Shown: positions 3,105 through 24,445 of the stretch, one piece after another
How the letters are laid out: each line of letters opens with the position of its first letter
Position numbering within the stretch: the first letter of the stretch is position 1
IMG/VR virus record: IMGVR_UViG_3300044644_000322
Span: 1-24,445 of that record
Direction: 5' to 3' (one strand)
DNA: 24,445 nt
Source: a virus
Notes under the pieces: generated by a model
What the model was told of the DNA's origin: nothing
Database searches by the model: none
What the model saw: only the letters and a program-made list of their open reading frames with translations
Translations under genes and position numbers: made by a program

Positions 3105-3371
3105 ATGGCTTGTTTCACCTCTCTTCCTTACCGCGATAAAACCTATCCATTTCTTCAAACTATTTTTGCTGCTACTGAACTTTCTCCCATTTCTTTTGGG
3201 TGTTATGATGCAGCGACTGATGCAGCTAAACTCTATCAGTTCTACCTCGGCTTTGCAACCATCGGTGGACTCACCCCAGTTGCTCAAAATTGCTTTGTGC
3301 AAAAAACTGAAGACCAGCAATTCTTCCTCGTTAACGAGGCTTTGTCCGCTGCTCTCAATCCTGTTACCTAA
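3105..3371 (+). CDS. Small structural protein made of three Cys-Phe repeats
   Basis: An 88-residue protein that I do not recognise as a named family. It reads as three repeats of exactly 30 residues, each starting with Cys-aromatic: C3-F4, C33-Y34 and C63-F64. The third, NCFVQKTEDQQFFLVNEAL, matches the repeat in the next three proteins. It lies between a likely decoration protein and a set of lectin-like proteins, so it is probably a virion component or connector. The start ATG at 3105 sits 16 bases after the preceding stem-loop; the stop TAA abuts a copy of the dispersed palindrome. Confidence 0.6.
   Translation: MACFTSLPYRDKTYPFLQTIFAATELSPISFGCYDAATDAAKLYQFYLGFATIGGLTPVAQNCFVQKTEDQQFFLVNEALSAALNPVT
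3108..3371 (+). repeat. Three in-frame 30-residue Cys-Phe repeats
   Basis: Cys residues at 3, 33 and 63 of the encoded 88-residue protein mark three units of 90 bases each. DNA identity between units is low, so the relation is visible mainly in the protein. Further copies are encoded at 3438-3596, at the start of the gene at 4333 and at the start of the gene at 4908. Confidence 0.55.
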
Positions 3372-3387
3372 TTATCGTAAACGATAA
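3372..3387. promoter_or_regulatory. Dispersed palindrome copy 2 (TTATCGTAAACGATAA)
   Basis: Exact match to TATCG-N4-CGATA with flanking T and A. It begins on the base after a TAA stop codon and lies 36 bases before the next start codon. Confidence 0.6.
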
Positions 3388-3422
3388 ATATTGGAACCTT
3401 CTGCGCCTAGAACAAAATAGTA

Positions 3423-4331
3423 ATGGCCGAAGATGATAGAGATTGCTTTATTGCTAAAACAACTGACAACCAGTTGTATGATGTCCTCGTATCATTAAGC
3501 CAAAAGTTCTATGTTCCAGAATTAATATCTAGGAATTGCTTTAATGGCTTAACTGTTGATGGACAGCTATGGCAAATCTACTCCGCAATCAGCGGCGGTG
3601 CATTGTGGACTCCACAGCAAATACCGACAGTATTTTGGTATGATCCGAGTGACGCATCTACAATCACAACTAGCGGATCAACGGTAACTCAAGTTACAGA
3701 CAAAAGCGGGAATAGCCGCACACTGAATGTAACAACTGTCGGAAAGATTGGCCCAACAATTGGAACGCGCAAGCTCAATGGATTAAATGTGTTTGAGTAT
3801 GCATTGCCAGACCCAAACAACCAAGTTTTAGAAAATAATTCATTTACATACAATCAATCTGCAACACCTCTAAATATCGCAATGATTTTTAGAACTGATG
3901 TAGAAACTGTAGCTACACAAGATTTTTTCTTTTCTGGAACCGAAAATACAGGAGTCCGTTTGGCTATTAGGAAAACTACATCAGATGCCTTGCAAATGCT
4001 TGGAACTTCTACTATAGGAACAGCAAATGGAACAGTGCCTGATAATTTGGATTTCATTCTTGTTACTAAATGGAACGCTGCAAATTCACAACTCAGATTG
4101 AATGGAACACTGTTAAACTCTGGAAACATTGGAACAACTAGTTTTTCATCTATAAATTTAGGTGCGAATGAAGCAGAATCTAGTAGTATTGAAGGATACA
4201 TCGCCGAGGTTGTAGCATTTGCTGACAATTCACAGCAGACAGTAGTAGAAGGATATCTAGCTTGGAAGTGGGGACTTGTAGCAAATCTTCCGGCAGGACA
4301 CCCATACAAGAACTCTCCGCCAATTATTTAA
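3423..4331 (+). CDS. LamG/concanavalin-like receptor-binding protein with N-terminal CF repeats
   Basis: A 302-residue protein. Residues 7-58 hold two Cys-Phe repeats (C8 and C39, each followed by a T-x-D-x-Q-L pattern), which probably anchor it to the virion. From about residue 68 (VFWYDPSDAST) to the end it resembles a LamG/concanavalin A-like jelly roll; the ending (EGYLAWKWGLVANLPAGHPY) is typical of such domains in environmental phages and in Verrucomicrobia/Planctomycetes-type proteins. A surface lectin that binds host or environmental glycans is the likely role. Codon use is more AT-rich than in the capsid gene. The start ATG follows GAACAAAATAGTA, a variant of the A-rich leader; there is no Shine-Dalgarno sequence. 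Confidence 0.65.
   Translation: MAEDDRDCFIAKTTDNQLYDVLVSLSQKFYVPELISRNCFNGLTVDGQLWQIYSAISGGALWTPQQIPTVFWYDPSDASTITTSGSTVTQVTDKSGNSRTLNVTTVGKIGPTIGTRKLNGLNVFEYALPDPNNQVLENNSFTYNQSATPLNIAMIFRTDVETVATQDFFFSGTENTGVRLAIRKTTSDALQMLGTSTIGTANGTVPDNLDFILVTKWNAANSQLRLNGTLLNSGNIGTTSFSSINLGANEAESSSIEGYIAEVVAFADNSQQTVVEGYLAWKWGLVANLPAGHPYKNSPPII
3438..3596 (+). repeat. Two in-frame Cys-Phe repeats in the LamG-like protein
   Basis: The units DCFIAKTTDNQLYDVL and NCFNGLTVDGQLWQIY are 31 residues apart at the N-terminus of the LamG-like protein. They match the last unit of the upstream 88-residue protein and the N-termini of the next two proteins. Confidence 0.65.
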
Positions 4332-4332
4332 A

Positions 4333-4887
4333 ATGGAAAAAGACTGCTTCACAGATTTAACAATTAACAATCAGCTTTGGGAAATTCTTAAAGCGATTGA
4401 ATTGTCTGTGCCGTATGGGAGAAGCTATGGGTCATTCTTTGATACAACGGATCAACCATTCTTGACTCTTGGAACCCCACAACCTGTCAGTATCAACTCG
4501 CAGCGTATTGCAAACGGAATAAGCATTGTTAATGGGACAAAGATAACATTCGCAAAAACAGGGATATATTCTCTGTCATTTTCTCTTCAAGTAATCAACC
4601 CAGACAATGCCGTGCATTCGTTTGATTGCTGGCTAAAATACAATGGGAACAATTTCCCGAACAGCACTACAAGGTTTGATATGCAACAACGCAAGAATTC
4701 TGGCTTACCAGCATATCTTGTAGCAAACTTTGAACTTACTGGCGCGGCACAAAATGCTGGTGATTATGTTGAGATTTACTGGAATGCAAATAGCACACAA
4801 TTATCTCTTGCAGAATTTCCAGCCCAAGTTTCTCCTAGCATTCCAGAGACGCCTAGCGTTGTAGTAAATGTTCATCAAATTTCTTAA
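4333..4887 (+). CDS. CF-repeat protein with C1q/TNF-like jelly-roll domain
   Basis: A 184-residue protein. It opens with one copy of the shared repeat (DCFTDLTINNQLWEILKAI, residues 4-22). Residues ~33-184 look like a C1q/TNF-type jelly roll known from phage virion proteins: a strand pattern GIYSLSFSLQV, then DCWLKYNGNN, then GDYVEIYW. Such domains form trimers at the tips of fibres and head decorations and bind host surfaces. The ATG at 4333 lies one base after the upstream stop codon, so translation may be coupled. The shared N-terminal repeat suggests it docks on the same site of the particle as its neighbours. Confidence 0.65.
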   Translation: MEKDCFTDLTINNQLWEILKAIELSVPYGRSYGSFFDTTDQPFLTLGTPQPVSINSQRIANGISIVNGTKITFAKTGIYSLSFSLQVINPDNAVHSFDCWLKYNGNNFPNSTTRFDMQQRKNSGLPAYLVANFELTGAAQNAGDYVEIYWNANSTQLSLAEFPAQVSPSIPETPSVVVNVHQIS

Positions 4888-4907
4888 ACTTTAACAAAAA
4901 TAATAAT

Positions 4908-5090
4908 ATGGCAGACCAAATAAATATTGAATGTTTTAGAAGCATGACTATTGATGGTCAGTTATATGCAATTCTTTCCGCAATTAACGATATGCAAATT
5001 ACCGTTCCAGAAGGTGGGCAAATAGCTCAAGTTCAAAACGGTGAATTGCAGAATGTCGAATTAATTGATGGAGGAGAGTTTACTCCTTAA
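4908..5090 (+). CDS. Small CF-repeat protein
   Basis: A 60-residue protein, half of which is the shared repeat (ECFRSMTIDGQLYAILSAI, residues 8-26). The rest is a short acidic tail rich in Gly, Gln and Glu (VPEGGQIAQVQNGEL, ending GGEFTP). No known family. It may be a minimal version of the docking module, capping or spacing the sites used by the two longer proteins upstream. The start ATG follows TTTAACAAAAATAATAAT, a typical A-rich leader of this phage. Confidence 0.6.
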   Translation: MADQINIECFRSMTIDGQLYAILSAINDMQITVPEGGQIAQVQNGELQNVELIDGGEFTP

Positions 5091-5126
5091 AAACAAAAAC
5101 AACAACAACAAACAATATAAAATAAT

Positions 5127-6044
5127 ATGGCTAATCCAATTATCAAAATCAAGCGCGGTTCAGGCGCACCCGTCTCCTTGCAGACAGGTGAGCTTGCAAT
5201 CGATACACTAAACAAAAGCCTCTTCATCGGCACAGCTGAAGGCGTCCTCGCCATCGGTGGCGAACACGTTTTCGCTAAAAAAACCTATGTCGATAGCGCG
5301 GTTTCGACCGAGCAATCTGCCCGTGAAGCAGCTGACACCACCCTCACCAACAACCTCAATGCGGAAATTTCTCGCGCTCAAGGTGCCGAAAGCGATCTCG
5401 CTGACGACATCTCTGCCGAGGAGACAGCCCGTATCGCGGCTGTTTCCGCTGAAGAGTCTGCTCGTATCGCTGCCGATACCACGCTCCAATCGAACATCAA
5501 CACGGAGAAAGGTCGTATTGACGCGATCCTTGCCGCCGCTGATGCCGACAAGGACAGCTTCGCCGAAATCGTCTCTCTTATCAACAGTGTTGATACCGAG
5601 AATGATACGGCTTTCGCTGGCTACGTTACATCGAACAATGCCGCTCTCGCCGCTGAGACTTCGGCTCGTCAATCTGCTGATACGACCCTTCAAGGTAATA
5701 TCGACACCGTTTCGAGCGATCTTTCTGCACTGACCTCCCGTGTAACCACGGCTGAGTCTGACATCCTTGCTGAAGAGACCGCTCGCATCGCCGCCGTGTC
5801 TGCCGAGCAAACCGCTCGTGAATCCGCTGTTTCCACTCTGGAAGCTGCTGACGATACCCTGCAAGACAACATCGACGCCGAGGCCAGCACCCGCGCTACT
5901 GCGGACACTAGCCTTAGCAATCGTATCGACGCCCTCGAAAGCGCCAGCGCGGATTCCCGCTTGGATGACGTAGAGGCAGACGTTGCTGATCACGAAACCC
6001 GCATCACCGCACTCGAAACCACCATCGACGGCGGAACCTACTAA
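5127..6044 (+). CDS. Trimeric coiled-coil fibre with Mtd-N-like anchor
   Basis: A 305-residue protein. Residues 1-45 (LQTGELAIDTLNKSLFIG) match the anchor domain found at the N-terminus of many phage fibres, including the major-tropism-determinant type. From ~50 on, it consists of degenerate repeats with EETARIAAVSAE- and DTTLQ.NI-like heptads, typical of a long trimeric coiled coil. The end (HETRITALETTIDGGTY) has no globular tip, so another protein may supply the receptor-binding head. Codon use is as biased as in the capsid gene, which argues for many copies per virion. The start ATG follows a CAACAACAACAAACAATATAAAATAAT leader in a 36-base gap; a GC-rich stem-loop follows the gene. Confidence 0.7.
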   Translation: MANPIIKIKRGSGAPVSLQTGELAIDTLNKSLFIGTAEGVLAIGGEHVFAKKTYVDSAVSTEQSAREAADTTLTNNLNAEISRAQGAESDLADDISAEETARIAAVSAEESARIAADTTLQSNINTEKGRIDAILAAADADKDSFAEIVSLINSVDTENDTAFAGYVTSNNAALAAETSARQSADTTLQGNIDTVSSDLSALTSRVTTAESDILAEETARIAAVSAEQTARESAVSTLEAADDTLQDNIDAEASTRATADTSLSNRIDALESASADSRLDDVEADVADHETRITALETTIDGGTY

Positions 6045-6061
6045 TAAACAATAACCAAGTC

Positions 6062-6087
6062 CTCCGTGGGGTAAAACCCACGGGGGC
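6062..6087 (+). terminator. GC-rich stem-loop after the coiled-coil fibre gene (no U-tract)
   Basis: CCTCCGTGGG (6062-6071) pairs with CCCACGGGGG (6078-6087) over 10 bp with one U-G pair and a 6-base loop. It is followed by CAACCATTCTATA and then the next ATG, with no T-run. It is the third stem of this type, again after a gene with strong codon bias. Confidence 0.6.
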
Positions 6088-6099
6088 AACCATTCTATA

Positions 6100-6798
6100 A
6101 TGGCTAACCCAATAATTGTCCCAAAGAAAAGCACAGTCAGTTCTAAAGTTCCAACAACTTCTGACCTTGCTCTTGGCGAGATTGCAATCAATCACGCAGA
6201 CAAAAAACTTTACGCTCGTCACCCAATTTCGGGAACGGTGCAAGAAATCGGCAGTCTTACTGCACATTCGCATGACCAGTTAATCAGCGTTGATTCTACG
6301 GCTGACTTGGAATTGCAGAATAATGGATCAGTAATCATTACTGATGGAGCCGTATCGACAACCCTTGCATTATCGTCAACGATAGCCAGAACAATCACCT
6401 TTCCAGACAAGACTGGAACAGTTGCACTACTTAACAGTGTTCCTATTGAAATTGGTCTGGCAGCATCTGATGAAACTACGGCTTTAACCACAGGAACGGC
6501 AAAGGTCACATTCCGCGCCCCATGCGCTATGACACTTACAGCAGTTCGTGCGAGTGTAACAACTGCTCCAGTTGGCTCTACGATCATCGTAGACATCAAC
6601 GAAAATGGAACATCAATTCTTTCCACAAAACTTTCAATCGACGCCTCGGAGAAAACATCAACAACCGCAGCAACAGCAGCAGTAATCTCTGACTCTAGTA
6701 TTGCGGACGATGCAGAAATCACTATAGACATCGACCAAGTTGGTAGCACTACAGCAGGTGCTGGACTAAAGGTTTGGCTAATCGGAACTCGCTCGTAA
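6100..6798 (+). CDS. Tail fibre protein with Mtd-N-like anchor
   Basis: A 232-residue protein. The N-terminus (MANPII, then LALGEIAINHADKKLYAR at 23-40) is the same anchor type as in the preceding fibre. The middle (~50-110) is a short beta-rich shaft. The last ~115 residues, with STIIVDINENGTSILSTKL and AEITIDIDQVGSTTAGAG, form a beta-sandwich domain that is widespread at the ends of phage tail proteins. It probably attaches to the tail or the neighbouring fibre and contacts the host. It starts a run of seven genes in which each start overlaps the previous stop (6100 to 8973). The gene carries an internal copy of the dispersed palindrome at 6370-6385. Confidence 0.65.
   Translation: MANPIIVPKKSTVSSKVPTTSDLALGEIAINHADKKLYARHPISGTVQEIGSLTAHSHDQLISVDSTADLELQNNGSVIITDGAVSTTLALSSTIARTITFPDKTGTVALLNSVPIEIGLAASDETTALTTGTAKVTFRAPCAMTLTAVRASVTTAPVGSTIIVDINENGTSILSTKLSIDASEKTSTTAATAAVISDSSIADDAEITIDIDQVGSTTAGAGLKVWLIGTRS
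6370..6385. promoter_or_regulatory. Dispersed palindrome copy 3 (TTATCGTCAACGATAG), inside a gene
   Basis: Exact match to TATCG-N4-CGATA within the fibre gene at 6100-6798, read there as Leu-Ser-Ser-Thr-Ile. The other intragenic copies encode unrelated peptides, so the constraint appears to be on DNA. Confidence 0.55.
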
Positions 6799-7601
6799 TG
6801 TTACTGATAAATCCATATAGATTTTCTCCACCAAGATTTATCTCAAATGATGCCAACGTTGTGTCTTATATCTTAGCTGTAGAAGCTGCTGACGGGCAAC
6901 AATTGGAGTCGGGCGTCATCACAGCGGTCGAATCATTCATCACCGGATGCAAATCCGACGGCATCTGGAGCGCCATCAAAGCCTCCTGCATTCTTGCGGG
7001 CGCTCGCACGCTCTCCGGTGCGCTTGTGCCGCTGGTTGGGAGTGTTCCGACAAATAATAATTTTGTCACTGGAGACTATAATCGAAAGACAGGATTATTA
7101 AGTAACGGTTCAACAAAATTCTTAAATACAAACAGAAACAATAATGCCGACCCTCAAAACTCAAAGCATATATCATGCTGGGTCACAGAGAGAATTGCAA
7201 CCAACGCAACTAACGGGAGCATGCTCATTGGCACCCACAATAACCAGTTTGGCCGAACCTTTTTTGGCGTCAATGTAGGGACTCCACCAACAGCTATCAT
7301 TCATGCAGTAAATCTGAACGGAAACTCCTCCGTCACGCCCGCTGCTGCAAATACTGGGCTTCACGGATTAAGTCGTTCTTCATCTGCAAATTATTCTGTA
7401 ATCTCGGCAGGAGTTACAGGCACCGCTTCAGCCGCGTCAGTTACCCCATACTCTCAAAATATCGGTGTTTTTGGCTCTGTCGCTGCACACCGGGTAACCG
7501 CAAGGATTTCATTTTACTCCGTCGGGGAAGCTTTGTCTTTGTCTACTTTTAACTCCCGCGTCAGCACCCTCATGACCGACTTCGCCGCCGCCCTCCCATG
7601 A
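6798..7601 (+). CDS. Receptor-binding-type protein of unknown family
   Basis: A 267-residue protein started at ATG 6798 in a TAATG overlap with the previous stop; an upstream in-frame TTG at 6774 is less likely. After a short N-terminus come ~55 residues (AVEAADGQQLESGVITAVES, later SCILAGARTLSGALVPL) of a type that recurs in environmental phage and prophage fibre regions, then a beta-rich part with Asn/Ser/Thr-rich strands (~100-267) that resembles a lectin-like or LamG-like fold. The function is inferred from position among fibre genes. Base composition is patchy: about 6890-7045 and the last ~60 bases are clearly GC-richer than the rest, consistent with mosaic assembly. Confidence 0.5.
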   Translation: MLLINPYRFSPPRFISNDANVVSYILAVEAADGQQLESGVITAVESFITGCKSDGIWSAIKASCILAGARTLSGALVPLVGSVPTNNNFVTGDYNRKTGLLSNGSTKFLNTNRNNNADPQNSKHISCWVTERIATNATNGSMLIGTHNNQFGRTFFGVNVGTPPTAIIHAVNLNGNSSVTPAAANTGLHGLSRSSSANYSVISAGVTGTASAASVTPYSQNIGVFGSVAAHRVTARISFYSVGEALSLSTFNSRVSTLMTDFAAALP

Positions 7602-7915
7602 CCCTCGCCGACCTCATCACACAGCCTATCAACTACGAGACCGCAAAAGACCTCGCGCTCGTTTTCAGCGCTGAACTCGCCGCGCAACTCGCCGCCGTGC
7701 AAGCCGAGCATGGCAACCCTCGCCATGTCGCCTCCCCCGTCGATCTCATCGATGGTCGCAAGATGCTCTGTGCGGATTTGCTGACCGAAGTCGGCCCCGG
7801 AGGGCTTTACTCCGGCGGATTCTCGCATCTTCCAGTAGAGCTATTTTCTCTTGTGCAAGTAATTCCAATGAGTGATGCTATTTTATTACTACCACAAACA
7901 GAAGAAGAATTATGA
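7598..7915 (+). CDS. Small protein paired with the preceding fibre gene
   Basis: A 105-residue protein that I cannot assign. The start overlaps the previous stop as ATGA. Residues 1-40 are Ala/Leu-rich and helical (ETAKDLALVFSAELAAQLAA); a hydrophobic C-terminal part ends in the acidic PQTEEEL. The 5' ~240 bases are GC-rich, then at about 7835 composition shifts sharply to AT-rich within the same frame, which suggests that a foreign 5' part was joined to a resident 3' part. Position after a receptor-binding-type gene and before the lysis genes would allow a fibre-assembly or accessory role, but nothing shows it directly. Confidence 0.5.
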   Translation: MTLADLITQPINYETAKDLALVFSAELAAQLAAVQAEHGNPRHVASPVDLIDGRKMLCADLLTEVGPGGLYSGGFSHLPVELFSLVQVIPMSDAILLLPQTEEEL

Positions 7916-8109
7916 ATATTGATTCCAACACATCATCACACGGAACAGGATTTGCTGGGACGATATACAGTATGTTTGCCGTAGCAGTTTCTATGTTGCC
8001 AGAACTAGACACATGGTTTAGGATTTTAGCATCAATCAGCGCAATCATAGCGGCATGGGTTTCGATCTATGTTATGATTTCAAAATTAAAGAAAGACAAA
8101 GACAAATGA
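7912..8109 (+). CDS. Holin-like protein, two membrane segments
   Basis: A 65-residue protein starting in an ATGA overlap with the gene before. Two hydrophobic stretches (about 13-30 and 35-57) are joined by a short acidic turn (PELDTW), and the end is strongly basic (KLKKDKDK). This is the layout of small two-span holins, which form inner-membrane lesions at the end of infection. It opens the lysis cassette; a second candidate holin lies at 8261. One of the two could be an antiholin or a spanin-type partner. Confidence 0.55.
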   Translation: MNIDSNTSSHGTGFAGTIYSMFAVAVSMLPELDTWFRILASISAIIAAWVSIYVMISKLKKDKDK

Positions 8110-9010: not shown

Positions 9011-11125
9011 ATGGGTAACTGCTCTTCAACTTCTAACTGCAATCCTTGCGGCCCAAACTACGATGCTATCAACCAGCTTGCTACTAAGACAGCAAGCTAC
9101 GCTCGTCAGGCGAATACCTACGCTATCAACGCAGAGAATAGCTGGCTTGAGTTCAACGCCCTTTACCTTGGAGCATTCGCAGTAGCACCCACAGTAGACA
9201 ATGAAGGCGATCCACTTCAGGTTGGGGCGTTGTATTGGAATAGTGTTCTTAATAATTTGTGGGCATGGGATGGAACAAGTTGGATGCCAGCAGTTGAGGG
9301 CGAGCTTTACCTTGGAGGTTTTGCGGCAGCACCAACATTGGACAACGAGGGAAATCCATTGCAGTTAGGAAATCTTTATTGGAACACAGCATCCAATAAC
9401 CTGTGGGCTTACAATGGGACATCTTGGGTTGAAACTGAATTTAACGAGTTCACTCCATTTTTGGCAACGGGAACGACATTTGCTCGCAATCTTGTTACCC
9501 GCTCAGCAGATGTAATCAATGTAAAAGACTTCGGAGCGGTTGGAGATGGTGCGGCGGATGATAGAACTGCATTTACAAATGCAATGAACGCGGCTTCTAC
9601 CACAAAAAAAAAATTGTATATTCCGGCAGGGAATTACAAAATTGATGTTCCAGCAGGCGGAACCTGCTTTGTGCCGCCGCCAGATGTCACAATGGCGGGA
9701 GATGGAAAAGTAAACACAAGACTATTATTTAACCATTTAGGCGGAGGAACTTGTTTTTTTGTTCAACATCCAAATCTTTCAATCAGTAATCTTGCAATAG
9801 AAACAACCGTTCCTGCGAGCGCGCTATCTTTTATCTTCTTAATATCTAATAGCAACTTTACTGTAACCGATTGTTTGATAGACGGGAAAGTAACAAACTC
9901 TGGTTCTGTTGAATCGCATCAAAGTTATGGTTTTTTTCACCTTCCAACGGGAACGCAGAACAATCTGTTGGTTCAAAATTGCGTTATAACAAGGCAGACT
10001 TGGCCATTTATAAAAGACAATGCTGCTACTTCAACTCAAAAAAATATTCGGATTCTATCAAATAAATTCATAACAAATTATCGTAACGATTGTGGGCTTA
10101 ATTCCCCAAAGGGAATTATGGAAGATGTAATTATTGATGGCAACACATTTGAGGATAACAGGTGCAATATTACAGCGGGTCATACTCAAGCACTTGGAAT
10201 AGCATTAGCATCTGTATCAAATGTTATTATTTCAAATAACATTATTAAAGGCCAATATACTGATGGAATACATATCGAAGAAAAATCTTATAATGTAAAA
10301 ATTATTGGAAATAACATAAGTATCACAAAGGGTGGAGCTACAAGTAAATGTATTGAATTTAATGCAAATAGCATTGGCGGGGCAGAATTAAATCCACAAT
10401 ATGTAATTATATCATCAAATAATTTAATTCAATATGGGACTAGCAGAGAAGCGGGAACATTTGGGATAGTTCTGCAAGTATCTGAAATACCCGGAAGCGA
10501 AGTTATTATTGCAGATAATATAATGCATGATTTTGAAACAGGAATATATTCAGTTTGCAAAGGTGAATCTTTAATTTCAATAACAAACAATATTATTTAT
10601 AATTGTGATAAGGGGTTTAATTTTCAAGAAGGTAAAATTACAGCTTTCAACAACTCAACTAAATTATGTAATACTGCAATATTTTCAAATACTACATATT
10701 TGCCAACAGATAGCATACTGGTAAAAGAACATACATTCATAGATTGCACAAATAATGTAACTGTTGTTCCAGAAACATTTATTATTTTAATAAATCCAAA
10801 ATTTGTCTTTAGTGAATTCAATCATGTTGCACCAGCTACATTAAAATATTTATTTCCAGCTAATATCGCATCAAGATTTTATGGCGATATTATGATGAAT
10901 GTCGTAAATGCAACGGGTTCATTTTATTATTGTTATAATGTTTTTGAGATCAAATGGGATGGGACTACATTTACATCAACAGAAATTGTGCAAAGAGAGG
11001 TTGGTTTTGCGGCAGCACCTTTTGTTGGATCATCTCAATTAGGAGTAGAAGTATATAATACACTTTCTTTATCAAATGTTGGACTTCAAATAGATTTTAA
11101 TGGAACAACATTTGTATCACAATAA
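9011..11125 (+). CDS. Beta-helix tail fibre / tailspike
   Basis: A 704-residue protein. Residues 1-45 form a Cys-rich, helical anchor (MGNCSSTSNCNPC). Two ~41-residue repeats follow (51-91 and 99-139, pattern YLG-F-A-AP ... LYWN ... W-G-SW). Residues ~150-172 are a linker (ARN, ADVINVKDFGA) that also occurs in the protein at 13219. From ~173 on, VGDGAADD begins a pectate-lyase-like right-handed beta-helix with Asn-rich rungs (for example ISNNIIKG, IIGNNI), typical of depolymerase tailspikes. The beta-helix part is markedly AT-rich against the 5' part, which suggests a swapped receptor-binding module. No active-site residues could be assigned, so enzymatic activity on host polysaccharide is inference. 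Confidence 0.75.
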   Translation: MGNCSSTSNCNPCGPNYDAINQLATKTASYARQANTYAINAENSWLEFNALYLGAFAVAPTVDNEGDPLQVGALYWNSVLNNLWAWDGTSWMPAVEGELYLGGFAAAPTLDNEGNPLQLGNLYWNTASNNLWAYNGTSWVETEFNEFTPFLATGTTFARNLVTRSADVINVKDFGAVGDGAADDRTAFTNAMNAASTTKKKLYIPAGNYKIDVPAGGTCFVPPPDVTMAGDGKVNTRLLFNHLGGGTCFFVQHPNLSISNLAIETTVPASALSFIFLISNSNFTVTDCLIDGKVTNSGSVESHQSYGFFHLPTGTQNNLLVQNCVITRQTWPFIKDNAATSTQKNIRILSNKFITNYRNDCGLNSPKGIMEDVIIDGNTFEDNRCNITAGHTQALGIALASVSNVIISNNIIKGQYTDGIHIEEKSYNVKIIGNNISITKGGATSKCIEFNANSIGGAELNPQYVIISSNNLIQYGTSREAGTFGIVLQVSEIPGSEVIIADNIMHDFETGIYSVCKGESLISITNNIIYNCDKGFNFQEGKITAFNNSTKLCNTAIFSNTTYLPTDSILVKEHTFIDCTNNVTVVPETFIILINPKFVFSEFNHVAPATLKYLFPANIASRFYGDIMMNVVNATGSFYYCYNVFEIKWDGTTFTSTEIVQREVGFAAAPFVGSSQLGVEVYNTLSLSNVGLQIDFNGTTFVSQ
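9161..9427 (+). repeat. Two 41-residue fibre-shaft repeats
   Basis: Units at 9161-9283 and 9305-9427 encode YLGAFAVAP... and YLGGFAAAP..., each ending W-x-G-T-S-W. Three further units lie at 12607-13017, so the phage keeps five copies in two fibre genes, a substrate for recombination between fibres. Confidence 0.7.
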
Positions 11126-11140
11126 AAAAACAGATAAACT

Positions 11141-11614
11141 ATGAGCAATTGCATACCATGTCCACCCTGCGAAGGAGACGAACCATTAGTCTGTGAACCA
11201 TACGGAACCGTAACCACGGGCAACCGAGTAATGGTAGAAGACGATGCGTTCTGCACCAAGACCATCGCCAACCCATCAAGCCCATCCATGCTGGCATGGG
11301 ACAACGGAATCAAATGGCTTACCGCGCAAGGTTGGCAGGCTATTTCTGCTACTCACTTCGCTAAGGCTGGAGAGAAGTTATCTGTAAATTCTGTAACAGG
11401 GCCATTCAACATCATTCTTCCACAGAACCCTAATCAGTTCGATGAGATTGTGTTTGCAAACCACTTCAATACATGGGGAACAAACAATGTCACAGTCCAG
11501 CGCAACGGATCGTTGATTGAGAATTTGAATGATGATTTGGTATTGAACACAACTTGGCCGATGCAATTCACCTTGCGTTTTGAAGGCTCAACATGGAGGG
11601 TATTTGAAGCATGA
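11141..11614 (+). CDS. Accessory tail fibre protein with Cys-rich N-terminus
   Basis: A 157-residue protein. The N-terminus (MSNCIPCPPCEGDEP, Cys 4, 7, 10, then Cys 18) resembles the Cys-rich anchors of the fibres at 9011 and 12427. The C-terminal ~80 residues (FNIILPQNPNQFDEIVF, then NNVTVQRNGSLIENL) match a small beta domain that is common at the end of phage fibre proteins and is often a receptor-binding tip. It follows the beta-helix fibre by 15 bases and is coupled by ATGA to the next gene, so the two are probably made and used together. Confidence 0.6.
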   Translation: MSNCIPCPPCEGDEPLVCEPYGTVTTGNRVMVEDDAFCTKTIANPSSPSMLAWDNGIKWLTAQGWQAISATHFAKAGEKLSVNSVTGPFNIILPQNPNQFDEIVFANHFNTWGTNNVTVQRNGSLIENLNDDLVLNTTWPMQFTLRFEGSTWRVFEA

Positions 11615-12426: not shown

Positions 12427-13200
12427 ATGAGTTGCCGAAACTACGATCCTTGCCTTGATAGCAAGTTAAACCAGATTGGAAGCTATGCGTCTGTAGCCAG
12501 ACAGAGCGCACAGAGTGCAACTGCTAGTGCAGCCGCAGCAGATGCCGATGCAACAGCAGCAGCAGCCAGCGCAGCAGCAGCAGCAGCCAGCGCAGAGATT
12601 GCAGGCATCTATCTTGGCCCATTTGCAACTCCTCCAACAGTAGATAACCAAGGAGGCCCATTGCAGGAAGGGATGCTCTACTACAATACGGGGAGCAACA
12701 CGCTTTTCGTCTGGAATGGTTCAAGCTGGTCAGCAATCCAAGATGATGAAATCTATCTCGGAGGATTTGCGGCAGCACCCGTGCTAAACAACCAAGGACT
12801 CCCATTAGTAAATGGGAATATGTATTGGAATACGGTTTCCAGCAGATTATTCACTTGGAATGGCTCTGCTTGGATTCAAGCGTTTGGTCAAAACTATCTG
12901 GGCGGATTTGCAGTTGCACCGACGCTAAACAACCAAGGCTTGCCACTTGTGCTTGGGAACCTCTACTGGAATAGCGTAACGAACAACTTGTGGGCCTACA
13001 ATGGGGTAGCATGGATCGTAACAACCTCAAACATGCCAACTGGCGGAGGAACAAACAGAATTTTTTACTTGAACGATAATCAAGTTACGGCAGACTACAC
13101 TATACCAGCAGGGAAAAACGCAATGAGTGCTGGGCCAATCACAGTAAATCCGGGCGTAACTGTAACAGTTCCTCCGGGCCAATCTTGGACAATCGTATAA
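12427..13200 (+). CDS. Tail fibre with Ala-rich coiled stalk and three shaft repeats
   Basis: A 257-residue protein. Residues 1-25 (MSCRNYDPCLDSKLNQIG) are a Cys-containing anchor like that of the fibre at 9011. Residues ~29-58 are a run of Ala-rich helix, likely a trimeric coiled coil. Three copies of the YLG-F-A-P ... LYWN ... W-G-W unit follow (61-101, 109-149, 157-197). Residues ~208-257 (IFYLNDNQVTADYTIPAGK ... VTVPPGQSW) form a small beta cap common at phage fibre ends. The start ATG lies behind GAATAAAATT without Shine-Dalgarno sequence. It looks like the partner of the beta-helix protein at 13219, just as the proteins at 9011 combine both parts in one chain. Confidence 0.7.
   Translation: MSCRNYDPCLDSKLNQIGSYASVARQSAQSATASAAAADADATAAAASAAAAAASAEIAGIYLGPFATPPTVDNQGGPLQEGMLYYNTGSNTLFVWNGSSWSAIQDDEIYLGGFAAAPVLNNQGLPLVNGNMYWNTVSSRLFTWNGSAWIQAFGQNYLGGFAVAPTLNNQGLPLVLGNLYWNSVTNNLWAYNGVAWIVTTSNMPTGGGTNRIFYLNDNQVTADYTIPAGKNAMSAGPITVNPGVTVTVPPGQSWTIV
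12514..12597 (+). repeat. GCA/GCC-rich low-complexity tract encoding polyalanine
   Basis: Imperfect tandem GCAGCA/GCCAGC units within the fibre gene encode the Ala-rich stalk (residues ~30-57). Such tracts are prone to slippage, which would change the length of the coiled-coil stalk in multiples of an alanine. Confidence 0.55.
12607..13017 (+). repeat. Three 41-residue fibre-shaft repeats
   Basis: Units at 12607-12729, 12751-12873 and 12895-13017 encode the same shaft motif as the two units at 9161-9427. Parts such as GGATTTGCGGCAGCACC are nearly the same at the DNA level in both fibre genes. Confidence 0.7.
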
Positions 13201-17383: not shown

Positions 17384-17400
17384 TTATCGGAAACGATAAT
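17371..17400 (+). promoter_or_regulatory. Possible promoter for the HNH gene overlapping a palindrome
   Basis: TGGACA (17371-17376; 5 of 6 to TTGACA) and GATAAT (17395-17400; 5 of 6 to TATAAT) are 18 bases apart. The right arm of the palindrome supplies the -10, so a protein bound to the palindrome would block this promoter. The +1 would fall close to or after the ATG at 17405, so a leaderless or nearly leaderless transcript would be needed; the call is weak. Confidence 0.25.
17384..17399. promoter_or_regulatory. Dispersed palindrome copy 6 (TTATCGGAAACGATAA)
   Basis: Exact match to TATCG-N4-CGATA with flanking T and A. It begins on the base after the TAA of the small upstream gene and ends 5 bases before the HNH start codon. 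Confidence 0.6.
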
Positions 17401-17404
17401 CCCT

Positions 17405-18118
17405 ATGGTATCCGTAAACGATAGTTGTTGCTCATCTTCTTTGGATCGCAAGCTCAAGCGCGGCGACACCAGAGAGGATGGCTATCGTTTTAGTAAATTT
17501 TTCAGAAAGAAAACCAAATTTAGTGAAGTTAAAACTTACGAGAAATGGTTATCTCCTGCTGCTTGGAAAAAAGAAATAGATAATGTAAGCATTCGTTCTC
17601 GTGAGTATAGGTTGAAAAATAAAAACAACCCAGAATATAGGGCGAGAAAAAAAGCCGCAGATGCAAAATCAAAAAGCAGGGAGTCAGCAAAGATTAAACA
17701 AGCTGAATACTTTAAAAGTTACTACCAAAATCCAGAAAAAATAGAACATAGACGAAAGTATATGCGTAACTATCTTGATAGAAAGAAAAACTATCTAAAT
17801 AGATTAAAGCATAATATTGGAACTCTAATAAGAATATCTATTAAAACAAAAGGTTTTAGCAAGGATACCAAAACAGAAGAAATACTCGGATGTTCTTGGA
17901 GTTTTTTCAAATTATATATTGAAGCCAGATTCCAAGAAGGACAAGGTTGGCACAACAGGGACTTGTGGGATATTGACCACATCAAACCTATCAAGTCAGC
18001 AAAGACAAAAAAAGAAGTAATGGCATTAAATCATTATTCAAATCTTCGCCCTCTTTGGAGGAAAGAGAATAGAGCAAAATGGTATAATCCACTTGAGGAA
18101 CAATTAAACTTAATCTAA
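17405..18118 (+). CDS. HNH endonuclease (free-standing, homing-type)
   Basis: A 237-residue, strongly basic protein. The N-terminal part (GDTREDGYRFSKFF ... KWLSPAAWKKEI) and a Lys/Arg-rich helical middle are DNA-binding in character. The C-terminal domain holds the HNH signature: W188-x-I-D191-H192-I, then L-N-H210-Y-S-N213-L-R-P-L-W and E-N222. Such enzymes nick or cut DNA with one metal ion and in phages often spread as free-standing homing endonucleases. The gene is AT-rich against its neighbours, interrupts an otherwise tight structural gene block, and starts between two palindrome-like sites. The stop is 2 bases before the next gene. Homing versus a packaging-linked role cannot be told from sequence; the terminase genes are not in view. 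Confidence 0.8.
   Translation: MVSVNDSCCSSSLDRKLKRGDTREDGYRFSKFFRKKTKFSEVKTYEKWLSPAAWKKEIDNVSIRSREYRLKNKNNPEYRARKKAADAKSKSRESAKIKQAEYFKSYYQNPEKIEHRRKYMRNYLDRKKNYLNRLKHNIGTLIRISIKTKGFSKDTKTEEILGCSWSFFKLYIEARFQEGQGWHNRDLWDIDHIKPIKSAKTKKEVMALNHYSNLRPLWRKENRAKWYNPLEEQLNLI
17409..17424. promoter_or_regulatory. Degenerate second palindrome at the HNH gene start
   Basis: TATCCGTAAACGATAG resembles the palindrome but has an extra base in the left arm (TATCC-G-TAAA-CGATA). It lies 25 bases downstream of copy 6, so the ATG at 17405 sits between two related sites, an arrangement typical of paired operators. Confidence 0.35.
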
Positions 18119-21979: not shown

Positions 21980-24445
21980 TCTTCACGGCAGATAAACTTA
22001 AAGAGGCGCGGGATTCTGGATACTCTGATGAAGAAATCTGGGGTTACGTAAGTTCATCTGATGATAGGTTTAATGCAGCAAAATCAGAAGGCTATTCACT
22101 TGATGAAGTAGCCACATTCTTTTCAAGTCAAAAACCAGTAGAAACATCTATTACTGACAAGCTCCAAACAGCAACAGAAGAATTAGAAGCTGGAATTGGC
22201 AGGGCTGGTGGAGCATTTGCGAAATCAGCAGTTGGATCGGCAAGGATGATCACCGATCTATTTGGTGCTAATAATAAAGTATCTAAAGAGATTGCTGGAG
22301 TAGAGGACTACATTGACCAGTTCACTAGCGCACAAGCCAAGCAAGACAAGGAAGAGATTAATAGGTTATTCCAAGAAGCAGAAGGAAAAGGTCTTGGTGC
22401 GAAGGTATTGGCTGGGCTTCAAGCCGTTGCTGTATCTCCAGAGACAATGGTAGCAGAGACTGCTGGATATATGTTGCCATCATTGGCTACTGGCGTATTG
22501 GCTACAATAGCTGCCGCCCCAACAACGGTTGCCATAGGAGCGCAAGCAATAGTTGGAGGCTATCAAGCAGCAGGAATGGTAAAGGGAGATATTTACAAAT
22601 CTGTTTTAGAGTATTCCCGCGAGCAAGGATTAGATGAAGTTGAGGCTGATCGTGCTGCTACGGAGGCTCAAGCGTCTGGAGGAAAAAATTCTGATTTAAT
22701 TCTACTAAACGCAGGGCTTGGGGCATTAGCTGCATCTACCGGAGCAGAAAAGATTGCTGCCAGAATACTTGCTGGCAAGGGAAAAGAAGTCACAAAAAAA
22801 TCCATCGGAGAGTTCTTGAAGCAAGGTGCTATGGCTGGTGGTGTAGAGGCTTTGACAGAAGGAACTCAAGAAGCGGCAGAACAAATCTCACAGAACATCG
22901 CCCTACAAAGACAAGGCAAGGATGTGCCTACTTTCCAGAATGTCCCGCAGGTAGCTACGATGGGCGCAGTGGCAGGTGGTATTATTGGTGGTGGATTAAA
23001 GGGAGTTGAGTTTCTTTCAGCGGAAGAGAAAGCTGAACAAGACATCAATCGCTCCGCAGATAGAGAAGCGAGATCACTTTTTGCTACTGACTCTACAACC
23101 AAAAAGGTTATCAATGATCTTAACCAATCTGAGAATGCGATTGATTCTTTAAGGCAAGAGTTAGACACGCTGGAGCCTACTGATCCAAAAGCACAGCAAT
23201 TGCGGATGCGAATCTCCGAGGAGCAAAAGAAAGCTACAGGACTAAAGCAATCCATTGGAGAAGAATTATCGGAACCGATAACAGAAGCCGAGCGTCAGCA
23301 AGCCGAGTTAGCCAAGGCGATAGTAGAAGAACCTGCCCCAACTGACAAGGAATCCTTGACAGTTCAACCTACAGAAGCTGCTCCCGTAGCCGCGCCAGTA
23401 GAACAAGTAGTTACGCCACCCGTAGAGGTTGCGCCCGCCATCGCAGAGGCCGCGCCAGTTGAGCCAGCCACTCCCGCACCAGTCACCGAGCAAGCTGTAA
23501 CCACTCCAACTACAGGTAAGCCATTTGAGTTTTTCTCAATACGAAACACAGAAAAATCTCCCGATCTTGGAGCGCAGTTTGGGCAAGACATAGAACCAAG
23601 CGGTAAATATGTTTCTGAATCAACTCCAAGCGCCGCTAAGAATCTGGATGAAAGATTTGAGAAAGGAACTGTTCGTTTTGAAAACCCTCTAGTTATTAAC
23701 TTTGGTGGAGAATACGGAAGCGAAACGAACTGGAAGAATGTTTTATCAAGTCAGTATGGAGGCAAGACAGGTGTTGAATTATCGCAATCGGTGCGTGACG
23801 CAGGTTACGATGGGATCGTAACTATTGAACCAGCCAAAGGCCCGAATAGACCAGCATCTACTAGCGAGATTGTTGATATTAGAAGTTTTAAACCAAAGGC
23901 TCAAGCCGTCGAAACAACGCCAGTAGTAGCCACCGCTCCAGCACAACCAGAAGGCATCGCAGTAGGCAACCGCATCAAGCTAGGCAAGAGTCCACAGACA
24001 TACACTATCGAAGAAGTAATCCCGCAGACTGCTAACGACAAGAAGTTCGGCGAGCAGTATTACAATGTAAAGAACGAGCGCACAGGCAAGACGCAGGTAG
24101 TCGAGAAGAACGACATGAAGCCTGTCAGTAGCAGAAGGCGCAAAATGGCATCAGAGCCAGACCCTCTTCCAGAGAATGAAAGATACGGGCAGGTTAAACT
24201 GAACCAAAGAATCCAAAGGTATTTCGGTGGAAAGATTCCAGACCGAATATATGTAGTGGATGACGCAGTAGATAAAGAGAAGAAATACCAAGCGGCATAC
24301 TACCCTGACTTGGGAATTCTTATTGTAAACAATGCTTACATTAAAAAGAACGCGAATGTTGGAGACATCATCGCTCACGAACTAGGTCACTACGCATTCG
24401 GAGATAAGAAATTTAAGGCGGCATTCGATAATTTCTACAACTCTC
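21976..24445 (+). CDS. Polyvalent internal virion protein with ART-like and metallopeptidase-like domains (3' end outside window)
   Basis: ATG 21976 overlaps the previous stop (ATGA) and the frame is open to the window edge (823 residues seen). Order: two short N-terminal repeats (ARDSGYSDEEI, AKSEGYSLDEV); hydrophobic Ala/Gly-rich stretches near 166-195, 240-270 and 328-345, likely membrane-active; a coiled coil around 370-430; a Pro/Ala/Val linker (~450-513); a domain at ~514-643 (FEFFSIRNTEK ... AGYDGIVTI ... EIVDIRSFKP) resembling ADP-ribosyltransferase-like domains of phage polyvalent proteins; an SH3-like stretch (~657-715); then a domain with HELGH (801-805), a zinc-peptidase motif. 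It is probably packaged, ejected and active in the host. ART catalytic residues were not assigned. Confidence 0.65.
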   Translation, partial: MIFTADKLKEARDSGYSDEEIWGYVSSSDDRFNAAKSEGYSLDEVATFFSSQKPVETSITDKLQTATEELEAGIGRAGGAFAKSAVGSARMITDLFGANNKVSKEIAGVEDYIDQFTSAQAKQDKEEINRLFQEAEGKGLGAKVLAGLQAVAVSPETMVAETAGYMLPSLATGVLATIAAAPTTVAIGAQAIVGGYQAAGMVKGDIYKSVLEYSREQGLDEVEADRAATEAQASGGKNSDLILLNAGLGALAASTGAEKIAARILAGKGKEVTKKSIGEFLKQGAMAGGVEALTEGTQEAAEQISQNIALQRQGKDVPTFQNVPQVATMGAVAGGIIGGGLKGVEFLSAEEKAEQDINRSADREARSLFATDSTTKKVINDLNQSENAIDSLRQELDTLEPTDPKAQQLRMRISEEQKKATGLKQSIGEELSEPITEAERQQAELAKAIVEEPAPTDKESLTVQPTEAAPVAAPVEQVVTPPVEVAPAIAEAAPVEPATPAPVTEQAVTTPTTGKPFEFFSIRNTEKSPDLGAQFGQDIEPSGKYVSESTPSAAKNLDERFEKGTVRFENPLVINFGGEYGSETNWKNVLSSQYGGKTGVELSQSVRDAGYDGIVTIEPAKGPNRPASTSEIVDIRSFKPKAQAVETTPVVATAPAQPEGIAVGNRIKLGKSPQTYTIEEVIPQTANDKKFGEQYYNVKNERTGKTQVVEKNDMKPVSSRRRKMASEPDPLPENERYGQVKLNQRIQRYFGGKIPDRIYVVDDAVDKEKKYQAAYYPDLGILIVNNAYIKKNANVGDIIAHELGHYAFGDKKFKAAFDNFYNS
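23266..23281. promoter_or_regulatory. Dispersed palindrome copy 7 (TTATCGGAACCGATAA), inside a gene
   Basis: Exact match to TATCG-N4-CGATA; here the arms extend to seven bases (TTATCGG/CCGATAA). It lies within the polyvalent gene, read as Leu-Ser-Glu-Pro-Ile. Confidence 0.55.

Follow-up and report, generated by a model that had tools for sequence, protein, structure and literature searches.

The DNA analysed here, hereafter the window, is one entire viral record, 24,445 bases long; it carries fibre, tailspike-like and putative head genes and gave no tRNA or Rfam match along its length. Four adjacent genes in it, here called p88, p302, p184 and p60 after their products, encode proteins that share a short unit in seven copies, distributed 3, 2, 1 and 1. 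The unit has the form C-[FY]-x3-T-x-[DN]-x-Q-L-[YWF] and leads into a helix, and all seven units lie at the cysteine positions listed in a preliminary description of this DNA. The features are as follows.

3105..3371, + strand: p88, three units and no other domain (22-row alignment; AlphaFold pLDDT 86; dN/dS 0.08-0.17)
3111..3170, + strand: p88 unit 1 (Cys 3), divergent (scores above each of 5000 column permutations against the non-p88 profile)
3201..3260, + strand: p88 unit 2 (Cys 33), divergent (profile p=0.0004 with the C-F columns omitted; predicted helices 31-36 and 39-53)
3291..3350, + strand: p88 unit 3 (Cys 63) (HMM E 1e-10; predicted helices 61-65 and 69-84)
3372..3387, no strand: 16-bp palindrome TTATCGTAAACGATAA, at the left boundary of the exchanged adhesin block
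3390..8104, + strand: adhesin block exchanged between close relatives (unrelated DNA between conserved flanks)
3423..4331, + strand: p302, two units and then a LamG-type beta sandwich (AlphaFold model and fold matches; phrog_10356 at E 8e-17)
3444..3503, + strand: p302 unit 1 (Cys 8) (HMM E 2e-10; predicted helices 4-10 and 12-29, low pLDDT)
3537..3596, + strand: p302 unit 2 (Cys 39) (HMM E 2e-11; predicted helices 37-41 and 45-56)
3603..4286, + strand: LamG-type domain of p302 (fold match)
4333..4887, + strand: p184, one unit and then a probable C1q/BclA-like domain (unit HMM E 5e-11; BclA_C E 0.003)
4345..4404, + strand: p184 unit (Cys 5) (HMM E 5e-11)
4908..5090, + strand: p60, one unit and a conserved short tail, NGELxNVxxIDxGEF (8-row alignment)
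4932..4991, + strand: p60 unit (Cys 9) (HMM E 5e-12)

Upstream lies the gene of a putative major capsid protein (961-2373, 470 residues). The protein is conserved at 93-99% across 80 viral contigs and ends in a cysteine-rich C-terminus (GSCCEV...DCYSCAG); Pfam and the isolated phages gave no match to it, and PHROGs none that was significant. We infer the capsid and decoration identities solely from position and conservation. In the related loci p88 begins some 600-730 bases past the capsid gene, after the decoration gene, or, in the clade of L083, immediately after the capsid gene. Purifying selection acts on all four unit genes (dN/dS 0.05-0.41 overall; 0.12-0.17 for p302, 0.05-0.09 for p184 and 0.11-0.41 for p60), which are therefore real protein-coding genes.

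The unit as a conserved, predicted helical hairpin

A profile built from five of the window units was iterated against related loci. Eighty loci of the same phage group, collected via the 470-residue putative capsid protein, held 145 units, and the set of 119 loci that resulted from two further viral scans, no locus being contained in another, held 242 units at E<0.01, every one on the coding (+) strand. Given that reversed sequences produced no unit at this threshold (top score E 0.8), a chance origin of the unit was rejected. Among 92 distinct units from proteins other than p88, extracted with Cys and Phe/Tyr required, the Gln is present in 92, the Asp in 89 and the Thr in 78. A DNA-pattern scan for the motif in 2.9 million viral contigs returned 36 stretches; 14 of those not yet assigned to the group were examined, and all except L209 encode unit proteins that the profile recognises. 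The relationship is also visible within the window, where p60 matches the two unit-plus-domain proteins at E 4e-5 and 0.002 when the window's own proteins are compared.

The first two units of p88 are more divergent and were tested separately against a profile made from units outside p88, omitting the C-F columns and using 5000 column permutations. No permutation was as good as unit 1, and unit 2 reached p=0.0004, so that both belong to the family, as had been claimed at the outset; Cys 3, Cys 33 and Cys 63 are moreover invariant in the 22-row alignment of p88.

The expectation that the units would share a fold is likewise borne out by the models. The AlphaFold2 model of p88, computed with 22 homologues, is all-helical with a mean pLDDT of 86, residues 1-10 being of low confidence, and unit 2 (helices 31-36 and 39-53) and unit 3 (helices 61-65 and 69-84) are built alike. 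The model of p302 is weaker (mean pLDDT 66); it starts with helices, and those of its second unit, 37-41 and 45-56, are in the same register as in p88. In both models the C-F pair sits inside a short helix, and a long one comes after the Thr that stands five residues past the Cys, giving the same short-helix, turn, long-helix arrangement. As modelled, the unit is thus a hairpin of two helices, about 20-25 residues long: a short C-F helix, a Thr cap and a longer helix.

Attached domains, gene order and exchange

Profile searching of viral loci recovered, as the preliminary description had anticipated, many further members placed before varied fibre or lectin domains. Behind the unit stand LamG-like domains of two kinds (one of them phrog_17104), C1q/BclA-like and collagen-like parts, a small beta domain, glycine-rich Gly_rich_2 (PF21722), DUF285 leucine-rich repeats and the tail-fibre part phrog_24754. 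In p302 the LamG-type assignment rests on fold: structures of this type match from residue 58-67 to about 285 with Z up to 16.5, an arabinanase domain being the top match at that value, and one relative has a Laminin_G_3 match. A match of p302 to a protein of Pseudanabaena phage PA-SR01 was set aside as a unit relative, the LamG part alone being held in common and the unit absent. Another LamG-like protein that matches p302, in Pseudanabaena phage Pam2 (ON014754.1, 57610-58305), is annotated 'botulinum neurotoxin type A'; the match suggests that this name was transferred on the strength of the common LamG-type fold. The C-terminal domain of p184, described earlier as C1q-like, is probably C1q/BclA-like to judge from its sequence; it resembles BclA_C at E 0.003, with a score of 17.9 bits that lies below the curated cut-off of 38. 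The further claim that a binding domain follows the unit fails for p60, in which the unit is followed only by the short tail and no binding domain. Similarly, two-unit proteins of 53-57 residues without any other domain exist and are conserved.

Several small proteins bear on the variety of these arrangements. The p60 tail (NGNEVAQIQNGELxNVAEIDAGEY) also occurs behind an unrelated N-terminus, FNPFTGxLDF, in L049, L061 and L071, after p88 and an ~85-aa gene; from its sequence context, this N-terminus may be an alternative anchor. At L015:9719-9937 and L187:10893-11201 (minus strand) there are small proteins with C-F and QQ-type motifs and a (V)DAGxY tail at the end, which seem to be p88 or p60 relatives that have diverged strongly.

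Gene order is regular at its start and variable thereafter. Each of the 77 loci that extend 3.5 kb or more past p88 has a unit protein next. The HMM recognises it in 69: a single one-unit protein in 54, a two-unit and then a one-unit protein in eight, and the 2-1-1 series of the window in seven, so that a 2-1 or 2-1-1 series follows p88 in 15 loci. The other eight were candidates for loci in which p88 is not followed by a unit protein, and these were rejected when the sequences were read: seven carry a divergent tandem pair, CFKDATEDVQRLEILRAI, without an HMM match, and in L071, also without one, the unit shares one long frame with p88. A strict order of three, then two, then one was rejected as well, L213 having 3, 1, 2, 1 and L212 at least 3, 1, 2; most genomes show 3, 1.

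Exchange is seen at two scales. Within a gene, L095 and L096 have identical units (24 of 24 residues) and unrelated C-terminal parts, and their DNA falls from about 90% to 20-40% identity in a sharp break at the glycine linker. At the scale of the whole cassette, the window is 85-94% identical to six relatives (L007, L010, L013, L032, L048 and L110) until about 3390 and unrelated to them beyond; homology returns near 8104 in five of the six, with a right flank up to 94% identical. The left break falls about 20 bases past the stop codon of p88, which is therefore the last constant gene before the exchanged adhesin block. Both kinds of event fit, and support, a docking or assembly module.

The palindrome at this left edge may be an operator, a hairpin or a recombination boundary. 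Copies of TTATCGNNNNCGATAA lie at 756-771, 3372-3387, 17384-17399 and 23266-23281 of the window, with near matches at 6370, 8986 and 14835; in 1.46 Mb of related loci there are 382, where base composition predicts 0.11. Roughly one site in four falls no more than 20 bases past a stop codon, and in the 80 loci with the window's gene order a copy lies between p88 and the first cassette gene. An ORF that looks by eye like an HNH endonuclease (17405-18118) begins 6 bases past one of the copies.

Role of the unit and of p88

These data are most simply read as a docking or assembly role for the unit, with p88 as its receiver. The unit would stand at the N-terminus of a set of exchangeable adhesin-type virion proteins. 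Those encoded later would carry one or two units ahead of varied fibre or lectin domains; p88, with three units, no other domain and a place always beside the putative head genes, would be the constant partner that receives them, and unit-unit contacts would join these proteins to p88 and, via p88, to the virion. We infer the virion presence of the proteins, the unit-to-unit contact and the part of p88 as hub. That the unit carries different domains is the strongly supported element of the docking proposal made in the preliminary description, given the varied attached parts and the common modelled fold. Likewise p88, which is conserved throughout the phage group, looks like a constant partner rather than one further adhesin. 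Taken as a whole, with p88 as that partner, we give this explanation a somewhat better than even chance of being right.

The units of p88 and those of the other proteins are far apart in sequence, and near-identical p88 proteins accompany quite different unit types, so that co-variation of p88 with its proposed partners was not seen in the related loci. A more specific form of the proposal, in which p88 would be a universal socket whose three hairpins pair with adhesin N-termini of one or two units, the 3-2-1(-1) series would set the make-up of a branched complex and replacement downstream would change the binding set, is tentative and in our judgement doubtful.

Alternatively, each unit protein, p88 included, might independently bind some feature that recurs on the capsid or decoration protein, giving head fibres placed much as gp8.5 is in phi29, without a p88 hub. 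The unit genes do come after the putative capsid and decoration genes, with p88 directly after the capsid gene in the clade of L083, and decoration proteins with cell-binding roles are known and provide a precedent (PMC7602432). In the same genome, the tailspike-like genes at 9011 and 12427 bear different N-terminal modules, and the tail may therefore already be served. Yet such anchoring leaves unexplained both the three domain-free units of p88 and the unit protein that always comes next, and a match to the gp8.5 fold was not seen among the PDB matches of p88. We consider it unlikely.

The N-terminal modules of the tailspike-like genes belong to a second, cysteine-rich style (MGNCSSTSNCNPCGP, MSNCIPCPPCEGD, MSCRNYDPCLD) found on tailspike- or fibre-like proteins. 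In the window it occurs at 9011-11125, 11141-11614 and 12427-13200, and among the relatives in L048 and L028; some of these starts lead into repeats of LYLGGFAxAPTLDNxGxPLxxGxLYWNT.

A role in trimerisation or folding is quite improbable. The unit would here gather three fibre chains in the manner of a foldon, and p88 would mimic, within a single chain, a trimer of units or serve as a folding factor. Collagen-like and C1q/BclA-like domains, which are typically trimeric, are among the attached parts, and the units stand at the extreme N-terminus ahead of glycine linkers, as such a role would have it; but tandem units before single domains would be unnecessary, and conserved proteins made solely of two or three units exist. 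Least probable by far is that the unit is kept mainly as a shared stretch of sequence for the exchange of adhesin genes rather than for a role in the protein, since the breaks of swaps at the linker and the frequent palindrome at the cassette edge are outweighed by strong purifying selection at the protein level (dN/dS about 0.1 for p88), retention of the hairpin at low sequence identity and conservation of p88 without any attached domain.

The docking or assembly reading has practical consequences. Within a widespread uncultured phage lineage, the unit would be a very short helical marker of exchangeable adhesin-type proteins, and its profile lets such proteins be recognised even when their variable parts match nothing. 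Further, p88 offers one concrete candidate for the partner on which several adhesins are mounted on one virion.

Relation to known proteins and phages

The statement that the unit belongs to no described family holds, at the sensitivities used, in Pfam, PHROGs, the PDB, isolated phages and GTDB. Neither p88 nor p60 has a Pfam-A match; in PHROGs v4 the best value, E 0.0084, came from one of 22 p88 members and none was consistent; no PDB chain matched the p88 profile with E up to 10; and tblastn of isolated phages with p88, the ~85-aa protein and the putative capsid protein gave nothing meaningful. By fold, the p88 model reached at best a chance-level Z of 3.0 in the PDB and had no match in BFVD with E up to 0.001. 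Relatives of p88 or of the capsid protein were not found in GTDB genomes, and there is therefore no host link.

Shared N-terminal modules in multi-adhesin sets are already known, as in phage CBA120; what appears new is the helical repeat, its copy numbers of 3/2/1 and a three-unit protein with no further domain. In CBA120 the tailspike TSP4 has XD1-3 and TSP2 has XD2-3, and the spikes join through these XD modules (PMC8825819). As with TSP1-TSP4, the binding proteins of one phage here share N-terminal modules in graded copy number. The modules of CBA120 join spikes, whereas the contacts between units are our proposal, drawn by analogy. The XD modules have a beta fold akin to that of T4 gp10, unlike the all-helical hairpin of about 20 residues predicted here, and TSP4 carries a spike and a baseplate anchor, whereas p88 has its three units and no other domain.

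The position of the genes and the helical repeat are reminiscent of the phi29 head fibre as well. Its gp8.5 is a homotrimeric capsid fibre with helix-turn-helix repeats in the stem and N-terminal beta-barrels on the capsid, for which attachment to the host surface has been proposed (PMC6542822, PMC7602432). In contrast, p88 is modelled as all-helical and p302 as beginning with helices, without a beta-barrel base; gp8.5 is moreover a single fibre, with no module that different proteins have in common, and it was matched here neither in sequence nor in fold. With helical modules and no beta-barrel base of the gp8.5 kind, the system is therefore neither of the CBA120 type nor of the gp8.5 type by the features tested. 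A third likeness, to the tailspike of cyanopodophage Pan3 (PDB 9vyh), concerns the binding domain only: its LamG-type fold corresponds to residues 58-284 of p302 (Z 16.0, rmsd 3.0, 211 aligned residues), in an alignment that starts at Pan3 residue 21 and leaves the p302 units uncovered.
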